From assembly GCA_017305535.1 (NCBI GenBank), contig JAFKKN010000002.1, forward strand, positions 496,001-560,000: a DNA stretch of 64,000 nucleotides. The letters are read 5' to 3'. Origin of the DNA: Hyphomicrobiales bacterium (GTDB taxonomy: Bacteria; Pseudomonadota; Alphaproteobacteria; Rhizobiales; Xanthobacteraceae). Of this stretch, positions 2,900 through 49,373 are shown one piece after another. Position 1 is the stretch's first letter. Each line of letters opens with the position of its first letter. The notes under the pieces were generated by a model. The model saw only the letters and a list, made by a program, of their open reading frames with translations. It did no database searches and was not told the origin of the DNA. The position numbers were made by a program, and so were the translations under genes.

Positions 2900-5320
2900 C
2901 TACCCTCGCAGCGTGCCGCCGGTTTTCTTTGTTACTTCCGCGACGATCTTCGCGGCGATGGCGTCGATTTCCTGATCGGTCAGCGTCTTTTCGCGCGGCT
3001 GGATCGTCACCGCGATCGCCACCGACTTCTTGTCGGGATCGATGCCCTTGCCTTCATAGACGTCGAACACGGTCACATTGGTGACGAGCTTCTTGTCGCC
3101 GGCCTGCGCGGCGCGGACGATGTCGGCCGCTTTCACGTCGCGGGCGACGATAAAGGCGAAGTCACGCTCGACCGGGTGGAATGCCGGCAGATCGAGCTGC
3201 GGCTTGGCACGGGTTGTTTTCGCCTTGCCTTCCGGAATGCGGTCGACGATCACTTCGAACGCCATCACCGGGCCGTCGGCGCCGAGAGCCTCCAGCGCGC
3301 GCGGATGCAATTCGCCGAAATAGCCGAGCACATTCTGCGGCCCCATCTGGATCGCGGCGGAACGGCCGGGATGCAGCCACGCCGGGAAGTTGTTTCCGCC
3401 GCCCGGTGCGATCTGCAACGCCTGCACGGAGGCGCCGGCCGCTGCCAGCACCGCGAAGGCGTCGGCCTTGGTGTCGAATGCGCTGGCTGGTGCCGCGCCG
3501 GTCCAGCTTCGGCCCAGGCCTTGCGACGAAGCGAAGCCGCGACGCACGCCGCTCGCCGCCGTGAACTGATCCTGCGGGCGGTCGCCCTTGAAGATCTGTC
3601 CGACCTCGAACAACGCGACGTCATCGGAGCCGCGATCGTGATTGGCCTGCGCCGCCGCGATCAATCCCGGCAGCAGCGAAGGCCGCATGTCGGAAAGATC
3701 GGCGGCAATCGGATTGGCGAGCGCCAATTCGGGCTGCCCGCCGCCGAACAGTTCGGCGTGGGGCTTTGCGATGAACGACCACGTCACCGCTTCCACCATG
3801 CCGCGCGCCGCGAGCGCGCGTTTGGCGCGGCGCGTGCGCGATTGCAGCGTGGTGAGCACCGGCTTGCGTGGATTGTCGCCGCGCGGGAACGGCGTCATCG
3901 GCACCTTGTCGACGCCGACGATGCGCACGATCTCCTCGACGATGTCGGCCTTGCCGTGCACGTCGGTGCGCCACGACGGCACCGCGATCTTCACCACCGG
4001 GCCGTTGCCCGCCACCATGAAGCCGAGCCGTTGCAGGATGCCGCGCGCTTCCGGCAGCGGCACTTCGATGCCGGCGAGGCGTTTCAGTTCGGACAGCGGA
4101 TAGTCGATGACGCGATCGTCGGGGAAGGCCTTGCCGACCACGACGTTGTCGGACGGCGTGCCGCCGCACAACTCCATCACCATCTTGGTCGCGAGTTCGA
4201 GCCCCGGCACCATGAAAGCCGGATCGACGCCGCGCTCGAAGCGATAGCGCGCGTCGGAATTGATGCCGAGCTTGCGGCCGGTCTGCGCGATGTTGATCTC
4301 GTTCCACAGCGCCGATTCGATCAGCACGTCGGTGGTGGTCTCGTCGCAACCGGATGCCTCGCCGCCCATGATGCCGGCGAGCGATTCGACACCGTGATCG
4401 TCGGCGATGACGCAGATCGACGGGTCGAGCTTGTAGGTCTTGCCGTCGAGCGCCAGCAACTCCTCGCCATCGCGTGCGTGGCGCACGGTGAGGTTGCCCT
4501 TCACTTTCTTCGCGTCGAATACATGCAGCGGCCGCGCACGGTCGTAGGTCATGAAGTTGGTGATGTCGACCAGCGCGTTGATCGGGCGCAGGCCGATCGC
4601 GGTGAGGCGCTGTTGCAGCCATTCCGGCGACGGGCCGTTCTTCACACCGCGCACCAGGCGCAGCGCGAAGCCGGGGCACAGCGTCGCGTCTTCGACGGTC
4701 ACCTGTACGGGACAAGGGAATTCGCCCTTGATCGGCTTGATGCCGGGGTCTTTCAGCTTGCCCATGTCGGCGGCGGCGAGATCGCGCGCGATGCCGTGGA
4801 CGCCGGTGGCATCCTGCCGGTTCGGCGTCAGATTGATCTCGATCACCGGATCGATCAGCTTCGCCCATTCGACATAGGACGCACCGATCGGCGCATCCGC
4901 CGGCAGTTCGACGATGCCGCTGTGGTCGTCGGAGATTTCAATCTCTGCGCCGGAGATCAGCATGCCGCGCGATTCCACGCCGCGAATGCTGCCGACGCTG
5001 AGCGTGATGTTCTTGCCGGGAATGAAGGTGCCGGGCGGGCCGAAGATGGTGACGAGCCCGTCGCGCGCGTTCGGCGCGCCGCACACCACCTGCACCGGCG
5101 CGCCGCCGTCGCCGATGTCGACCATGCACACCCGCAGACGATCCGCATTCGGATGCTGCACGGCGGAGATCACGCGCGCGATGCGGATCGGCTTGAGCTG
5201 TTCGGCCCTGTTCTCGATGTGCTCGACCTCAAGCCCGATCATGGTGAGCTTGTCGGCGAGCTTTTCGAGCGGCTCGTCGGTCTCGAGATGATCCTTCAGC
5301 CAGGAGAGGGTGAATTTCAT
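2900..5320 (-). CDS. pheT: phenylalanine--tRNA ligase beta subunit
   Basis: An 806-residue protein of normal length for the family. Order of domains: an EMAP/Arc1-like tRNA-binding domain (about 40-150), B3/B4 editing domain (about 200-390), B5 domain (about 400-475), catalytic-like core, and a C-terminal anticodon-binding FDX-ACB domain (about 712-806). With PheS it forms the alpha2-beta2 enzyme that charges tRNA-Phe in the cytoplasm. The start ATG has a GAGG site 9 nt upstream and overlaps the TGA of the preceding DUF559 gene as ATGA. In most bacteria pheT directly follows pheS; here 553 bp separate them, nearly all of it the inserted DUF559 element. Confidence 0.97.
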
Positions 5321-5811
5321 GACTGCGAACCTCGAACTGATAGAGCGGCGGATTGAACTAAATTGGCGGAGTTGGTGTTTTTGGAGGGCACGGTTCCTCC
5401 GTTCCCTCCCCCCTTGTGGGGGAGGGGCAGGGAGGGGGGTGAGCCGTTCGTGCAGGACGACGCGGCAAGACGAATGGCTTCCACAACGCCTTCCAGATTC
5501 GACATCACATCCTGATTGGTGAAGCGCAGCACCTGAAAGCCTTCAGCTACGAAGAACGCATCGCGGGTCGCGTCAGCCTTCTGCTGCGCGTGGAAATCAT
5601 GCGACGGACCATCAAGCTCGATGATCAACTTCGCTGACAGACAGGCGAAGTCTATGATGTAATTCTTGAACGGGACCTGGCGGCGAAAGCCTAATCCATC
5701 GACTCGATTGGCCTTCAGATATCGCCAAAGCAGAGTTTCGGCAGGCGTCATCACCTGGCGCAATTGCTTTGCGCGACCGCGTTGACGTTCACTGACCGAT
5801 GCGTGCGGCAT
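5317..5811 (-). CDS. DUF559 PD-(D/E)XK-type endonuclease-like protein inside an inverted-repeat element
   Basis: A 164-residue protein. The frame stays open upstream into pheS, but homology to the family begins at the ATG at 5811 ([10 protein letters not shown]). Features of the DUF559/Vsr-like fold: AE--LW (24-29), GFRRQ (41-45), D54 in IIDFAC, E65-x-D67-G with H71, and VLRFTNQDV (94-102). D54, E65 and D67 are the likely metal-binding acids. Residues about 121-138 ([13 protein letters not shown] region) are encoded by the downstream terminal repeat, and the last 26 residues read through host sequence to a TGA overlapping the pheT start. The start codon is 9 nt inside the upstream repeat, whose purine-rich edge supplies a possible ribosome site. 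It lies between pheS and pheT, in their orientation. The nuclease assignment follows from the fold family; activity is inference. Confidence 0.85.
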
Positions 5812-5864
5812 TCCGGGTTTACCCCCCTCCCTGACCCTCCCCCACAAGGGGGGAGGGAACGGAG
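5397..5864 (-). mobile_element. 468-bp inverted-repeat element carrying a DUF559 gene (family D copy 1)
   Basis: The terminal repeats 5397-5440 and 5821-5864 are inverted copies of each other over 44 bp with one mismatch. Each arm is also internally palindromic (CCTCCCCC-ACAA-GGGGGGAGG). Between them lies the DUF559 reading frame. The element occupies the pheS-pheT junction and has no transposase gene. I see no clear target-site duplication. The right arm is nearly identical to the left arm of the gene-less copy at 31597-31764. Calling it mobile is an inference from repeated structure and position. Confidence 0.6.
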
Positions 5865-5873
5865 AGTCTGTTC

Positions 5874-6962
5874 TCACGAACTTAATCCTCCCGCGAGCGT
5901 CGGGATATCGAGCGGCCTGAAGCCGTAGTGGTTGAGCCAGCGGGCGTCGCCTTCGAACAGTTGGCGCAGGTCGGCGATGCCGTATTTCAGCATCGCGATG
6001 CGGTCGATGCCCATGCCCCAGGCAAAACCCTGATAGACGTCGGGATCGATGTCGCAGGCGCGCAGCACGTTGGGATGCACCATGCCGCAGCCGAGAATCT
6101 CCAGCCAGTCCTCGCCTTCGCCGAAACGGATCTCGCCCTTGTCGCGGCGGCACTGGATATCAACTTCCAGCGACGGCTCCGTGAACGGGAAGAACGACGG
6201 CCGGAAGCGCATGTTGATGTGATCGACCTCGAAGAACGCCTTGCAGAATTCGTGCAGGATCCACTTCAGGTGACCGAGATGCGAGCCCTTGTCGATCACG
6301 AGGCCTTCGACCTGATGGAATTGCGGCGTATGCGTCGCGTCGGAATCGATGCGATAGGTGCGGCCCGGACAGATCACGCGGATCGGCGGCTTCTGGCTCA
6401 GCATGGTGCGCACCTGCACCGGCGAGGTGTGCGTGCGCAGCAGCAGGCGCGAACCGTCTTCCTTCGGATTGAAGAAGAAGGTGTCGTGCATCTCGCGCGC
6501 GGGATGCCCTTCGGGAAAATTCAGCTTGGTGAAGTTGTAGTCGTCGGTCTCGATGTCCGGACCTTCGGCCACCGCGAAGCCCATGTCCGCGAAGATGGTG
6601 GTGAGTTCGTCCCACGTCTGGCTCAGCGGATGGATGCGGCCGGCGTCGGCCGGCGTATCACGCAGCGGCAAGGTGACGTCGATGGTCTCAGACGCGAGGC
6701 GCGCGTCGAGCGCGGCGTTCTTGAGCACGTCGCGGCGCGCGGTCAATGCCTGCGTCACCGCATCCTTGGCGAGATTGATCCTGGCGCCCTCGGACTTGCG
6801 TTCGTCGGGCGACATCTTGCCGAGCGTGGCGAGCAGCGCCGAGATCGAGCCCTTCTTGCCGAGCGCCGAAACGCGCACGGCTTCGAGCGCGGCTTCGTCG
6901 GAGGCGGCGGCGATGTCGGTGAGGATTTGGGATTGCAGAGTTTCGAGATCGGACATGGACAT
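5874..6962 (-). CDS. pheS: phenylalanine--tRNA ligase alpha subunit
   Basis: A 362-residue protein, within the usual length range. The N-terminal about 90 residues form the coiled-coil tRNA-binding arm; the rest is the class II aminoacyl-tRNA synthetase core, with motif 2 visible as [16 protein letters not shown] and motif 3 as [18 protein letters not shown]. It is the catalytic subunit that activates phenylalanine. The ATG is 1 nt after the stop of the small membrane-protein gene, so the two are probably translationally coupled. A second ATG two codons in is an alternative start. Confidence 0.97.
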
Positions 6963-6963
6963 C

Positions 6964-7566
6964 TCAGGAGTTCACGCGGCGGATACGGTAATCAGAGATC
7001 TCCCGGATTTTTTCGGAGGGGCCGTCGAGGAGATCGAGCAGGACCGGCGGGCTGTCGGTCTTGAGTTCGAGTTGAAACAACTGGGTCGGTCGCGACCAGA
7101 CTCTCAGCGGAGATTCGTAGAGAAACCAGGCTATCCCCTCGAGCAGCGTTTGCGGCCGCGCCGGTTTTATCGCGTTGACGTCCCTGTATGCAATGCGTCG
7201 TCCCGATGAGCCGATGACGAAGGCGTCGGTGCGCAACTGAAGCGGCGCCGTCTGTCGGGATTGATCCAGCCGCTGAGTTAGCCATCGCCAGACAATCGCG
7301 GCGGCACCTGCGAAAAGCAGAGCCACCAAAGCGAGAGATAGGGGGCCTTTCTGAAATAAATGCGCGAACAGGTTCGCGCTGATGCCGTCAATCAGCGTGG
7401 CTTGCCACACAGCGATGCCGAGCAGGCCAGCCGTGATAAGGGCCATGACGATCTGATGCCGGCGCAGCCGTGACGTATTTTCGGCATAGGTCAGTTCGCC
7501 GCTCCGCTCTGCTTCCGTGAGCGAAGCGATGCCTGTCCAGTTTGCTGAATCGACATCAAGCGTCAT
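6964..7566 (-). CDS. hypothetical membrane protein between rplT and pheS
   Basis: A 200-residue protein from the ATG at 7566; an in-frame extension upstream would run through the rplT terminator and is unlikely. Two hydrophobic segments are visible (about residues 37-58 and 72-94), followed by a cytoplasmic domain of about 105 residues with a possible beta-rich fold ([19 protein letters not shown]). I do not recognise the family with confidence. It is tightly coupled to pheS (1-nt gap) and is separated from rplT by a terminator-like hairpin, so it probably heads the pheS-pheT transcription unit. Confidence 0.75.
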
Positions 7567-7582
7567 CGCCGGTGCCTTACGC

Positions 7583-7612
7583 GAAAAGCCCGCCGGGATT
7601 ACCGGCGGGCCC
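7583..7612 (-). terminator. rho-independent terminator after rplT
   Basis: On the minus strand a GCCCGCCGG-TAATC-CCGGCGGGC stem is followed directly by TTTT. It lies 37 bp after the rplT stop, and closes the infC-rpmI-rplT unit. Confidence 0.8.
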
Positions 7613-7649
7613 GACAACTCTCGGCAGGGGTATGTGCTGGCTCTGAGCC

Positions 7650-8280: not shown

Positions 8281-8711
8281 TTGGCTCTCCTCAAAGCCAC
8301 GGCAAAACCGCCCCAAGGGGCGGCAGCGTGGCTAAAATGCTCGTTAGAGCGTTGAAAGTGCTCGATTTTTCCGAAAGGAACAAACCCGCACGGCTCATCG
8401 CCACGGCAGCCCTTAATCAGCCGGGCGACGAAGATGGGGCTTATGACAGAGGATTGGGGGAAAGGCAACGCGATTCAGCGAAAGGGTGAAACAGTGATGC
8501 CGCTGATGTCCTTCGGCGGCTTAAGCGGCCCCCTCCCTATCCCTCCCCCGCAAGCGGGAGAGGGGACTGGCCCGTCGCGGGGTGGGCGCATTGCCCATCA
8601 TTCCGCGCGGGGCTCTCTCAATAAAATTGAGGGATAGAATATCCGCAGGCACGGCGCGCTCCCTCTCCCGCTTGCGGGGGAGGGTTGGGGTGGGGGCTCT
8701 TGGAATGCCGC
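8281..8711. other. enlarged infC-rpmI intergenic region
   Basis: 431 bp without a supportable gene. The infC-proximal part is the gene-less repeat element 8529-8697. The remaining about 250 bp next to rpmI has no obvious open frame, and could hold the translational control leader or an internal promoter for rpmI-rplT. I could not identify specific boxes. Confidence 0.5.
8529..8697. repeat. 169-bp gene-less inverted-repeat element (family D copy 4)
   Basis: Left arm about 8529-8566 and right arm about 8657-8697 are imperfect inverted copies (CCCTCCCCCGCAAGCGGGAGAGGG type). They enclose about 90 bp with no gene. It has the same arm type and almost the same length as the copy at 31597-31764 (168 bp), suggesting a defined short form and not random decay. 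It sits between infC and rpmI. Confidence 0.65.
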
Positions 8712-31523: not shown

Positions 31524-31596
31524 CAGGCGGTGCCTTCGATGATGCGTTCGCGTGCAGACGCGATTGGTGAAACAAATCGATGCAATCGCCGCTGCC

Positions 31597-31764
31597 ACCC
31601 CCCTCCCTGGCCCTCCCCCACAAGGGGGGAGGGAACTGAGAGGATTGGTGTCAACGGATCAGCAGTTAGTTTGCTCTGTGTGGTGTTTCGTTGAGCTTTC
31701 TGCCTTAGCCAGACGCGCCGCGCGGCTCCCTCTCCCCTTATGGGGGAGGGGTGGGGAGGGGGGT
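31597..31764. repeat. 168-bp gene-less inverted-repeat element in the ugpA-ugpE gap (family D copy 3)
   Basis: The left arm ACCCCCCTCCCTGGCCC... CAAGGGGGGAGGGAAC (31597-31636) is near-identical to the right arm of the DUF559 element in pheS-pheT. The right arm (about 31723-31764) is an imperfect inverted copy. About 85 bp of non-coding DNA lies between. It has the same length class as the element at 8529-8697, and so looks like a short non-autonomous form of the DUF559-bearing elements. Confidence 0.75.
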
Positions 31765-31797
31765 CGAACGCGAGACCGGCGCGAATGATGCTAACCA

Positions 31798-32682: not shown

Positions 32683-33093
32683 CTATCGCCCCGCGTCGCC
32701 GCATTTCCCCTCCCCCCGCTCTCGCGGCGGGGAGGGGTCAGGGGTGGGGGGTGCCACGCGCAGAGCGCCGATGATTGTCTCAAACACGCCATCGATATTG
32801 CCGAGCACGTCGTTATTCCAGAATCTGAGGACGCGATAGCCGCTCGCTTCGAGATAACTTGTACGGGTCGCGTCGCTGGCGCTCTCCGCGTGTTGCCCGC
32901 CATCGATCTCGATCACGAGGCGATGGGTATGACAGGCGAAGTCCGCGAAGTAGGGGCCGATCGTCGCCTGACGTCGAAAGTGCGCCGCGCCCGGCAGCAT
33001 GCGCAATCGCTGCCAGAGCTTGCGTTCGGCGTCGGTCGGATTTTGTCGAAGTTGGCGCGCGCGCGGGACACGACGATCCACAGAGCGAGACAT
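32683..33093 (-). CDS. DUF559 PD-(D/E)XK-type endonuclease-like protein in the ugpB-ugpA gap
   Basis: A 136-residue protein from ATG 33093. Motifs: AERKLWQRLR (22-31), HFRRQ (38-42), D51 in FADFAC, E62-x-D64-GGQH68, and YRVLRFWNNDV (86-96). It has the same DUF559 fold and likely metal-binding acids as the protein between pheS and pheT, from which it is clearly diverged. Residues about 115-128 (PPTPDPSPPRERGEG) are encoded by the downstream inverted repeat. The start codon is 9 nt inside the upstream repeat, as in the other copy. It is transcribed with the ugp operon. Confidence 0.85.
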   Translation of the reverse strand: MSRSVDRRVPRARQLRQNPTDAERKLWQRLRMLPGAAHFRRQATIGPYFADFACHTHRLVIEIDGGQHAESASDATRTSYLEASGYRVLRFWNNDVLGNIDGVFETIIGALRVAPPTPDPSPPRERGEGKCGDAGR

Positions 33094-33148
33094 TCGTAGC
33101 GTCCCCCCACCCCCGACCCCTCCCCGCCGCAAGGGCGGGGGGAGGGGA
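32706..33148 (-). mobile_element. 443-bp inverted-repeat element with DUF559 gene (family D copy 2)
   Basis: The arms 32706-32751 and 33103-33148 are inverted copies over 46 bp with about three mismatches (CCCCACCCC-GACCCCTCCCC...GGGGGGAGGGGA). GCAT occurs outside both ends (32701-32704 and 33149-33152), offset by one base on the left, so it is only a weak hint of a duplicated target. The arms differ in sequence from those of the pheS-pheT element although the architecture is the same, so this is an independent family member. Confidence 0.6.
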
Positions 33149-33222
33149 GCATGAGCGGCTTTTGCGAACTGCAATCGAAAAGCGCCCATGGCTCCTAGCT
33201 TCATGGCTCCCAGCGTCGTCGA

Positions 33223-49214: not shown

Positions 49215-49373
49215 CTTCACCTCTCCCCGCTTGCGGGGAGAGGTCGGCCGGCGCAGCGTAGCGGAGACGGCCGGGTGAGGGCGTACCGAGTGCACAACTG
49301 CGCGCATTGGCCCGCCTGATCCTCCTTGCCCCTCACCCCGACCCTCTCCCCGTAAACGGGGAGAGGGAGAAGC
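49215..49373. repeat. about 159-bp inverted-repeat element after folC (family D copy 5)
   Basis: The left arm begins CTCTCCCCGCTTGCGGGGAGAG, followed by a nested GCGCAGCGTAGCGGAGACGGC insert. The right arm has CCCTCTCCCCGTAAACGGGGAGAGGG. Same architecture as family D but more diverged; no gene inside. It lies between the convergent folC and trxA genes. Confidence 0.6.

Follow-up and report, generated by a model that had tools for sequence, protein, structure and literature searches.

DUF559 nuclease genes are framed by inverted repeats of triplex-motif design: a probable REP/RAYT-like system with a nuclease of the Vsr fold

Genes of the DUF559 family are framed by two inverted copies of a hairpin repeat with the design of the published intrastrand triplex motif, and it is highly probable that the genes and the repeats belong to one system. 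As the pairing recurs across many bacteria, the DUF559 family probably spreads triplex-motif repeats. That the nuclease itself drives this spread is suggested, with fair confidence, by the anatomy of the units, by cohorts of matching repeats and by one duplication of a whole unit. The arrangement can reasonably be taken as a REP/RAYT-like system run by a nuclease of the Vsr fold, in which the association was observed and the nuclease-driven spread is what we infer. We lean slightly towards the wider reading, in which DUF559 would be the source of the orphan triplex-motif repeats and would constitute a second, independently evolved REP-like system, with a Vsr/homing fold and not HuH.

The DNA analyzed (the window) is a stretch of 64,000 nucleotides located in contig C15 of a genome of 4.7 Mb. 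The operon order on its minus strand is pheS, then DUF559, then pheT, all co-directional according to the open reading frames and the profile search. The features of the locus are:

5317..5811, minus strand: DUF559 (PF04480) gene, 164 aa, with its ATG at 5811 (PF04480 E-value 1.4e-35)
5874..6962, minus strand: pheS
2900..5320, minus strand: pheT
5816..5864, minus strand: upstream arm (in the sense of the gene), with the hairpin CCCTCCCCC-CTTGT-GGGGGAGGG and, on the gene side, the third strand AGGGAGGGGGG
5397..5445, minus strand: downstream arm in inverse orientation, third strand towards the gene and hairpin outside
5317..5879, minus strand: stretch inserted relative to the empty site of genome G001, with the hexamer TC(A/G)TGA at both ends (stop/start)

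The initial annotation had described a DUF559 gene lying co-directionally between pheS and pheT, sharing ATGA between its stop and the pheT start (5317–5320), and enclosed by 44-bp inverted arms with one mismatch, all of which was borne out by the open reading frames, the PF04480 search and the comparison of the arms. The full arms are of 49 nt each and 94% complementary, and they include the 44-nt stretch with one mismatch. The inverted repeat stands, with the correction that each arm is composed of an outer hairpin and a further G-rich stretch (the third strand) on the inner, gene-facing side. The C-terminal tail of DUF559 is encoded through the downstream arm. Neither a GTAG nor a CGTC tag was seen when the stem bases of these two arms were read by eye. 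Allowing up to three mismatches, the hairpin pattern has eight matches in the window, versus a mean of 0.29 and a maximum of 3 in 100 shuffles. Beyond the upstream arm, positions 6959–7648 hold a 217-aa open reading frame between pheS and rplT; this stretch also looks inserted, as the distance between its flanks is only about 140–205 bp in genomes G001, G002, G004 and G005.

Concerning the encoded protein, the pheS-pheT copy matched PF04480 with 121.9 bits (cut-off 20.6). Its earlier assignment to the PD-(D/E)XK/Vsr-like nucleases agrees with the predicted fold, for which the nearest structures were those of a DUF559 protein, PvuRts1I, a homing endonuclease and Vsr. In the AlphaFold2 model, 81 residues within approximately 11–123 have pLDDT values of at least 90, with a dip at 71–80, and residues 124–165, which include the arm-encoded tail, fall below 50. 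Foldseek comparison of the model with the PDB gave 3hrl (Neisseria DUF559) with an E-value of 1e-7, PvuRts1I with 2e-4, the catalytic domain of I-Bth0305I (3r3p) with 1.2e-3, and Vsr (1cw0) with 0.04. E14, D43, E54, D56, H60, D69, R72 and N88, numbered along the domain, were kept in all 61 armed proteins compared, and these residues are candidates for the active site, a role assigned to them from the family. Among the copies of genomes G000, G003 and G005, dN/dS was 0.08–0.12, and dS was 0.70–1.01 versus 0.24–0.30 for the part of pheT compared. Membership of a defence system was rejected, the PADLOC matches (DpdF and Hhe) being just weak.

The window contains a second DUF559 gene, framed by arms in the same manner as the first, and several free repeat pairs, three of which are given here:

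32683..33093, minus strand: second DUF559 gene, 136 aa, 48% identical in amino acids to the first over the domain
32702..32752, minus strand: downstream arm of the second DUF559, of a different hairpin type
33100..33150, minus strand: upstream arm of the second DUF559
31527..31793, with hairpins at 31599–31632 (minus) and 31729–31762 (plus): free pair of the same motif as the pheS-pheT arms, third strands outward
8529..8695, no strand assigned: free pair of a related motif, third strands outward; hairpins at this place number none in G001 and one in G005
49220..49368, no strand assigned: free hairpin pair; the matching place has two hairpins in G005 and none in G001

At the site of the second gene, G005 has a single hairpin only, which combines the outer half of one arm with that of the other. 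The free pair at 31527–31793 is missing from G001 and G005, and on both its flanks there is the 8-bp repeat ACCATCAG; the place is a stop/start overlap, and 5 of the 8 bases would be conserved there by selection alone.

The generality of the framing was analyzed in the home family, i.e., that of the window, using genomic stretches of 20 kb at most surrounding DUF559 genes (mostly best-scoring places, not random ones). The 200-nt flanks of the genes were compared, and the controls were greedy longest open reading frames of 90–300 aa from the same regions, which are not annotated genes. From 79 domain matches, four low-scoring, overlapping antisense frames were removed, and two of the remaining 75 had short flanks, which left 73. 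An inverted-repeat score of at least 30 was reached by 69 of these 73 DUF559 genes versus 3 of 506 control frames, with median scores of 63 and 17, respectively. Hairpins stood on both sides of 59/73 DUF559 domains versus 0/506 controls, and on either side of 70/73 versus 15/506. The unit formed by arm, DUF559 gene and arm has a median size of 470 nt (quartiles 451–496; n = 61, score of at least 40). At least one framed DUF559 gene was present in 27 of the 28 genera of the home-family sample, and 24 of the 28 had framed ones only. The polarity of the arms was nearly constant: among left arms, 55 had the third strand on the gene side and one had it pointing away, 17 of the 73 not being scorable, while in right arms it pointed towards the gene in 53, away in none and both ways in one, with 19 not scorable. 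Outside the home class, hairpins occurred on either side of 16/20 DUF559 genes versus 3/124 controls and on both sides of 8/20 versus 0/124, and an inverted-repeat score of at least 30 was reached by 11/20 versus 1/124. Neither of the outcomes that the initial annotation had named as contrary to its proposal was found, namely a lack of empty sites and flanking repeats unrelated to DUF559 genes elsewhere.

The arrangement has variants. In six records of a plasmid collection, read by eye, such motifs or related ones adjoin DUF559 in varying arrangements: the motif copies are direct in a Neisseria record, the third strands point outward in Synechocystis, and the motif is present on one side only in the Deinococcus and Sinorhizobium records. 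The Pseudanabaena plasmid (L238) carries several copies of a repeat on both sides of DUF559; this repeat is rich in C and G, has AATT in its stem, and is a different motif with a similar design of hairpin and G-rich strand. The DUF559 genes of genus g76 (loci L215, L223 and L230; family f24) stand between related hairpins with other stems, which are missed by the counting pattern. At locus L198 (G013:C12), the 200-nt flanks of DUF559 form an inverted repeat of 116 nt with a score of 191, far above the usual arm length. Each of eight genomes of the genus also has one long DUF559 protein, in open frames of about 400–520 aa, and at the one such locus inspected (L003) no arms were found.

The arms of each gene are also dispersed in its own genome. 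Those of the pheS-pheT gene match about a dozen other places, the best match of each being of 84–100% over 30–67 nt. At seven of these places an inverted partner lies at a distance of about 60 bp, and in the pair at 31.6 kb of the window the distance is about 130 bp. Nine of the places were read. In seven of them the arm is followed, after about 25 nt, by an inverted partner whose type is the same in all seven; the third strands point inward, as they do in the gene unit, and one of these seven places has a degraded hairpin. L345 has no such partner, and that of L347 differs. The second DUF559 gene has arms that match a few other places, and these are different ones, the overlap amounting to one weak pair near C3:92.5 kb. 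A 37-nt arm sequence with two positions left free occurred in 30 of 149 home-family genomes. Within the genus, it was present at six places in G000 (two of them arms), three in G003 (two arms) and three in G005 (one arm), all of which have the pheS-pheT gene, and it was absent from G001, G002, G004 and G007, which have an empty pheS-pheT junction. In genome G104, among the matches listed, 19 places match the DUF559 unit from its first 1–6 bases; the matches begin about 20 bases outside the hairpin, and many of them are inverted pairs. The free pairs of G104 (L303–L325) share a leader containing GCCACGC and CTCGGC, and also an inverted trailer in which CCGAGTTCGG is present. As these bases outside the hairpins are common to the free pairs, the unit may end outside the hairpins in G104. 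The third strands of free pairs point inward in some and outward in others.

A text search with the letters of the arms led to the intrastrand triplex motif (TM/PIT), whose design the arms share. The E. coli motif of Holder 2015 is given as CCCTCNCCC N3-6 GGGNGAGGG N3 GGGNGAGGG (PMC4666352). According to the available part of that paper, the motif class is present in more than 260 genomes, and the 23 copies of E. coli MG1655 include ten that form five inverted pairs; the repeats are described there as abundant and tied to genome instability, with a source not known, as having no promoter or terminator activity, and as not associated with transposons, phages or plasmids, nor with flanking genes of a common function. 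The window arms fit just a relaxed form, devised in this analysis, of the consensus CCCTCNCCC-loop-GGGNGAGGG-N3-GGGNGAGGG. An exact match to the consensus was found in E. coli KE47 at the 3′ end of ycjD, which is a DUF559 gene; this copy is eroded in MG1655, and in both strains there is a further copy about 170 bases beyond. The features shared with the triplex motif are the arm design, the exact match at ycjD of KE47 and the inverted pairs of E. coli. The link to DUF559 is contributed by this analysis; the available part of PMC4666352 gives none to mobile elements or to the function of flanking genes.

A query covering sapF-ycjD-fabI was matched over at least 80% of its length in 3362 of 5426 E. 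coli genomes. A clean insertion of ycjD was ruled out, as four strains without ycjD have, as read, an efflux operon in that place. The same replacement is contained in the available text of PMC12817139, where a missing eef efflux operon is taken as its loss. Since in the place of eef there is a DUF559 gene with a 3′ repeat, the exchange between sapF and fabI may involve these repeats. The E. coli motif pairs at hrpB-mrcB and lldD-trmL vary among strains, and the strain comparison gave no clear target duplication at either. At hrpB-mrcB of one strain the outer hairpin halves are fused, a deletion like that seen at the second DUF559 site in G005.

Whether the repeats go together with the gene was considered in 299 genomes of Pseudomonadota, taking as a strong DUF559 match an E-value of 1e-20 or lower and counting weaker matches as without. 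Of the 77 genomes with a strong match, 62 had at least two hairpins, and of the 222 others, 20 did. Within the 16 families that hold both kinds of genomes, the figures were 52/66 versus 11/112 (Mantel-Haenszel odds ratio 112, p 5e-14). The association persisted without the largest family (p 7e-9), and without the home family it was 44/58 versus 10/111, the odds ratio being unchanged when the home family was added. The correspondence is far from strict. Fifteen genomes of this sample without a strong match, a few of them with weak ones, have at least five hairpins and up to 118, and eight genomes with a DUF559 match have no copy of the hairpin pattern; g76 relatives of two of these eight have a related hairpin that the counting pattern misses. 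In the home family, hairpins are present in 10 of the 11 genomes without any DUF559 match (9–98 in number, the median of the 11 being 57), and the seven genus genomes G000–G005 and G007, all with DUF559, have 9–42. G025, G102, G106 and G122, with no DUF559 match, have 60–98 hairpins each. So, the number of repeats in the home family does not track the presence of DUF559. DUF559 as a strict condition for the repeats was rejected, as they are held by DUF559-less genomes of the home family and of the phylum sample. Old repeats outliving their gene would explain the hairpins of DUF559-less home-family genomes. The covariation between arms and proteins was weak (Mantel rho 0.22, reached in none of 2000 permutations; rho 0.09 for pairs below 60% identity).

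Concerning movement, the clearest case is that of G104, where two DUF559 units, separated by 35 kb, show 93.6% identity over 455 bp and have unrelated flanks. The matching stretch starts slightly outside one arm and stops where the other arm ends, and the pair is a clean copy of the unit of arm, gene and arm at a non-allelic place. Such duplicates were rare: one of 46 within-genome DUF559 pairs, drawn from part of the copies of 14 genomes, had at least 80% nucleotide identity. The 145 locus pairs with DUF559 genes at least 80% identical in nucleotides shared both flanks in 119 cases, one flank in 26 and none in 0. This set does not include the second copy of G104, many of its rows refer to the same place, and contig ends account for some of the single flanks. 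At pheS-pheT, a recognizable DUF559 was present at 9 of the 30 loci read. The empty sites whose search the initial annotation had proposed were found in G001, G002, G004 and G007, of the same genus, and the filled ones are in G000, G003 and G005. In trees of three regions, not every genome being in each tree, G000 groups with G004 and G001 with G005, so that the pattern of filled and empty sites needs repeated loss, recombination or repeated gain. As judged from these sequences, it is compatible with an old insertion that was followed by losses or recombination. The data do not support a recent movement of the pheS-pheT copy, because close DUF559 gene pairs share their flanks and because G000, G003 and G005 share the copy while the sisters G004 and G001 are empty. 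The operon-tolerant mobile element of the initial annotation is supported in part, by the empty sites and the dispersed arms, and weakly if at all as regards a recent movement of this copy; an action of the nuclease on its own terminal repeats would belong to the mechanism proposed below. The repeat at the ends of the pheS-pheT insert is of 6 bp with one mismatch and lies on the stop/start overlap. A consistent target duplication was not found, and just one free pair combines a repeat (8 bp) with a clear empty site; over the 224 kb in which G000 was compared with G005 and G001, target duplications were mostly unreadable because the intergenic DNA has diverged.

Among the closest known systems is that of REP repeats and REPINs with their RAYT (TnpA-REP) transposases. 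The shared features are the dispersed inverted palindrome pairs in many copies and the mostly vertical nuclease gene standing between two inverted copies, with repeat types matched to the gene; a framed nuclease gene with many copies of its repeat elsewhere was found here as well. The parallel drawn in the initial annotation, with a nuclease of another fold, was reinforced by the general association of arms with DUF559 and by the dispersal of the arms in their own genome. The enzyme of REP/RAYT is of the HuH/Y1 type, while here it is a PD-(D/E)XK DUF559 protein (PF04480), and the GTAG tag of REP is not in the pheS-pheT arms of the window, which are hairpins with a third G-rich strand. So, the DUF559 system would work like REP/RAYT and yet is not a member of it, since it does not have the HuH/Y1 nuclease that defines it. 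MITEs and their parent insertion sequences share with it the coexistence of a gene-bearing unit and short gene-less pairs with its ends, but the DUF559 unit is without a classical transposase, and the candidate target duplications differ in length, with 8 bp at one free pair and 6 bp (one mismatch) at pheS-pheT. YcjD, Caulobacter VsrA and NGO0050/3hrl belong to the same family as the window DUF559, and Vsr has a similar fold; these Vsr/DUF559 proteins have been studied as repair or putative nucleases, and the accessible parts of the publications do not mention flanking repeats. I-Bth0305I, a Vsr-like homing endonuclease, has a structurally close catalytic domain and is not a repeat-framed DUF559 unit.

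A mechanism can be proposed in which the unit of arm, DUF559 gene and arm would be the gene-bearing ('autonomous') member of a small-repeat family. Each arm would form a hairpin from a C-rich and a G-rich strand and, next to it, have a second G-rich strand able to fold back on the hairpin, and DUF559 may recognize this structure in single-stranded or extruded DNA, e.g., on the lagging strand, and nick at the ends of the folded arms. Repair or replication would then copy short pairs of motif, spacer and motif to new places and, rarely, the whole gene unit, while deletion between the two palindromes would leave single hairpins. The unit may tolerate operon sites because a stop and a start are left at its ends. 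RAYT genes persist as mostly vertically inherited, selected genes, and the DUF559 gene would likewise persist mostly by vertical inheritance under selection.

Other explanations have to be weighed against this. DUF559 could be a host nuclease for Vsr-like repair or genome guarding, with the motifs acting as regulatory elements (insulators, mRNA ends) or as a policed substrate, and the repeats not being moved by it. The predicted fold similar to Vsr, the purifying selection on DUF559, the flanks shared by close gene pairs and the persistence of repeats without DUF559 in the home family are compatible with such a role, as is VsrA of Caulobacter: the SOS response of cells lacking a cytosine methylase depends on this DUF559 protein, for which the available source proposes a role in mismatch repair. 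This explanation is nevertheless unlikely, considering that the motifs stand at both gene ends, almost always with inward polarity, and at hardly any control frame, that the dispersed copies match each gene's own arms, that the repeats are reported, in the part of Holder 2015 at hand (PMC4666352), to have no promoter or terminator activity, and that the vsr profile TIGR00632 was reached by the second window protein alone, with 18.3 bits, far below the cut-off of 97.85, the first protein giving no match.

It could also be that another enzyme (a RAYT, an IS200/IS605 or an unknown transposase) mobilizes the repeats and that DUF559 genes are passengers landed between them. Some genomes do have many repeats without DUF559, and REP repeats with GTAG or CGTC tags are present in Bradyrhizobium and other Alphaproteobacteria according to the accessible part of PMC3733652. 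The initial annotation had seen no transposase, and for Y1_Tnp (PF01797) this extends to the genus: none of eight same-genus genomes had a match, versus 5 of 14 control genomes, including E. coli, in the same search. This, together with the lack of framing on both sides of any other small gene of the same regions (0/506), the framing of many diverged DUF559 proteins and the unit ends shared by free repeats, makes the passenger explanation improbable. It seems quite improbable that DUF559 units behave as homing-like genes, with empty alleles being cut and the unit copied in by recombination, and with the dispersed repeats as deletion by-products. I-Bth0305I is the nuclease of a selfish element; Foldseek places the DUF559 model beside its catalytic domain, and presence and absence at pheS-pheT depart from a simple genus-tree pattern, both of which would suit homing. 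On the other hand, free pairs with conserved ends stand at unrelated places, which in-place deletion does not explain, and the unit copy of G104 is at a non-allelic place.

The spread of the repeats by DUF559 nucleases is the reading preferred here. No paper linking DUF559 with such repeats was found among open-licence texts, judged mostly by their titles and the openings of their abstracts and including the part of PMC12907096 available, and a prior description elsewhere is possible. If the reading is true, the repeats of hundreds of bacterial genomes, among them that of E. coli K-12, would trace to DUF559 nucleases, and a biological role could be given to DUF559, so far a domain of unknown function. 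The origin of the repeats of E. coli, pseudomonads and alphaproteobacteria would become directly testable, many E. coli strains being without ycjD, and REP-like systems would have arisen with two unrelated nuclease folds.
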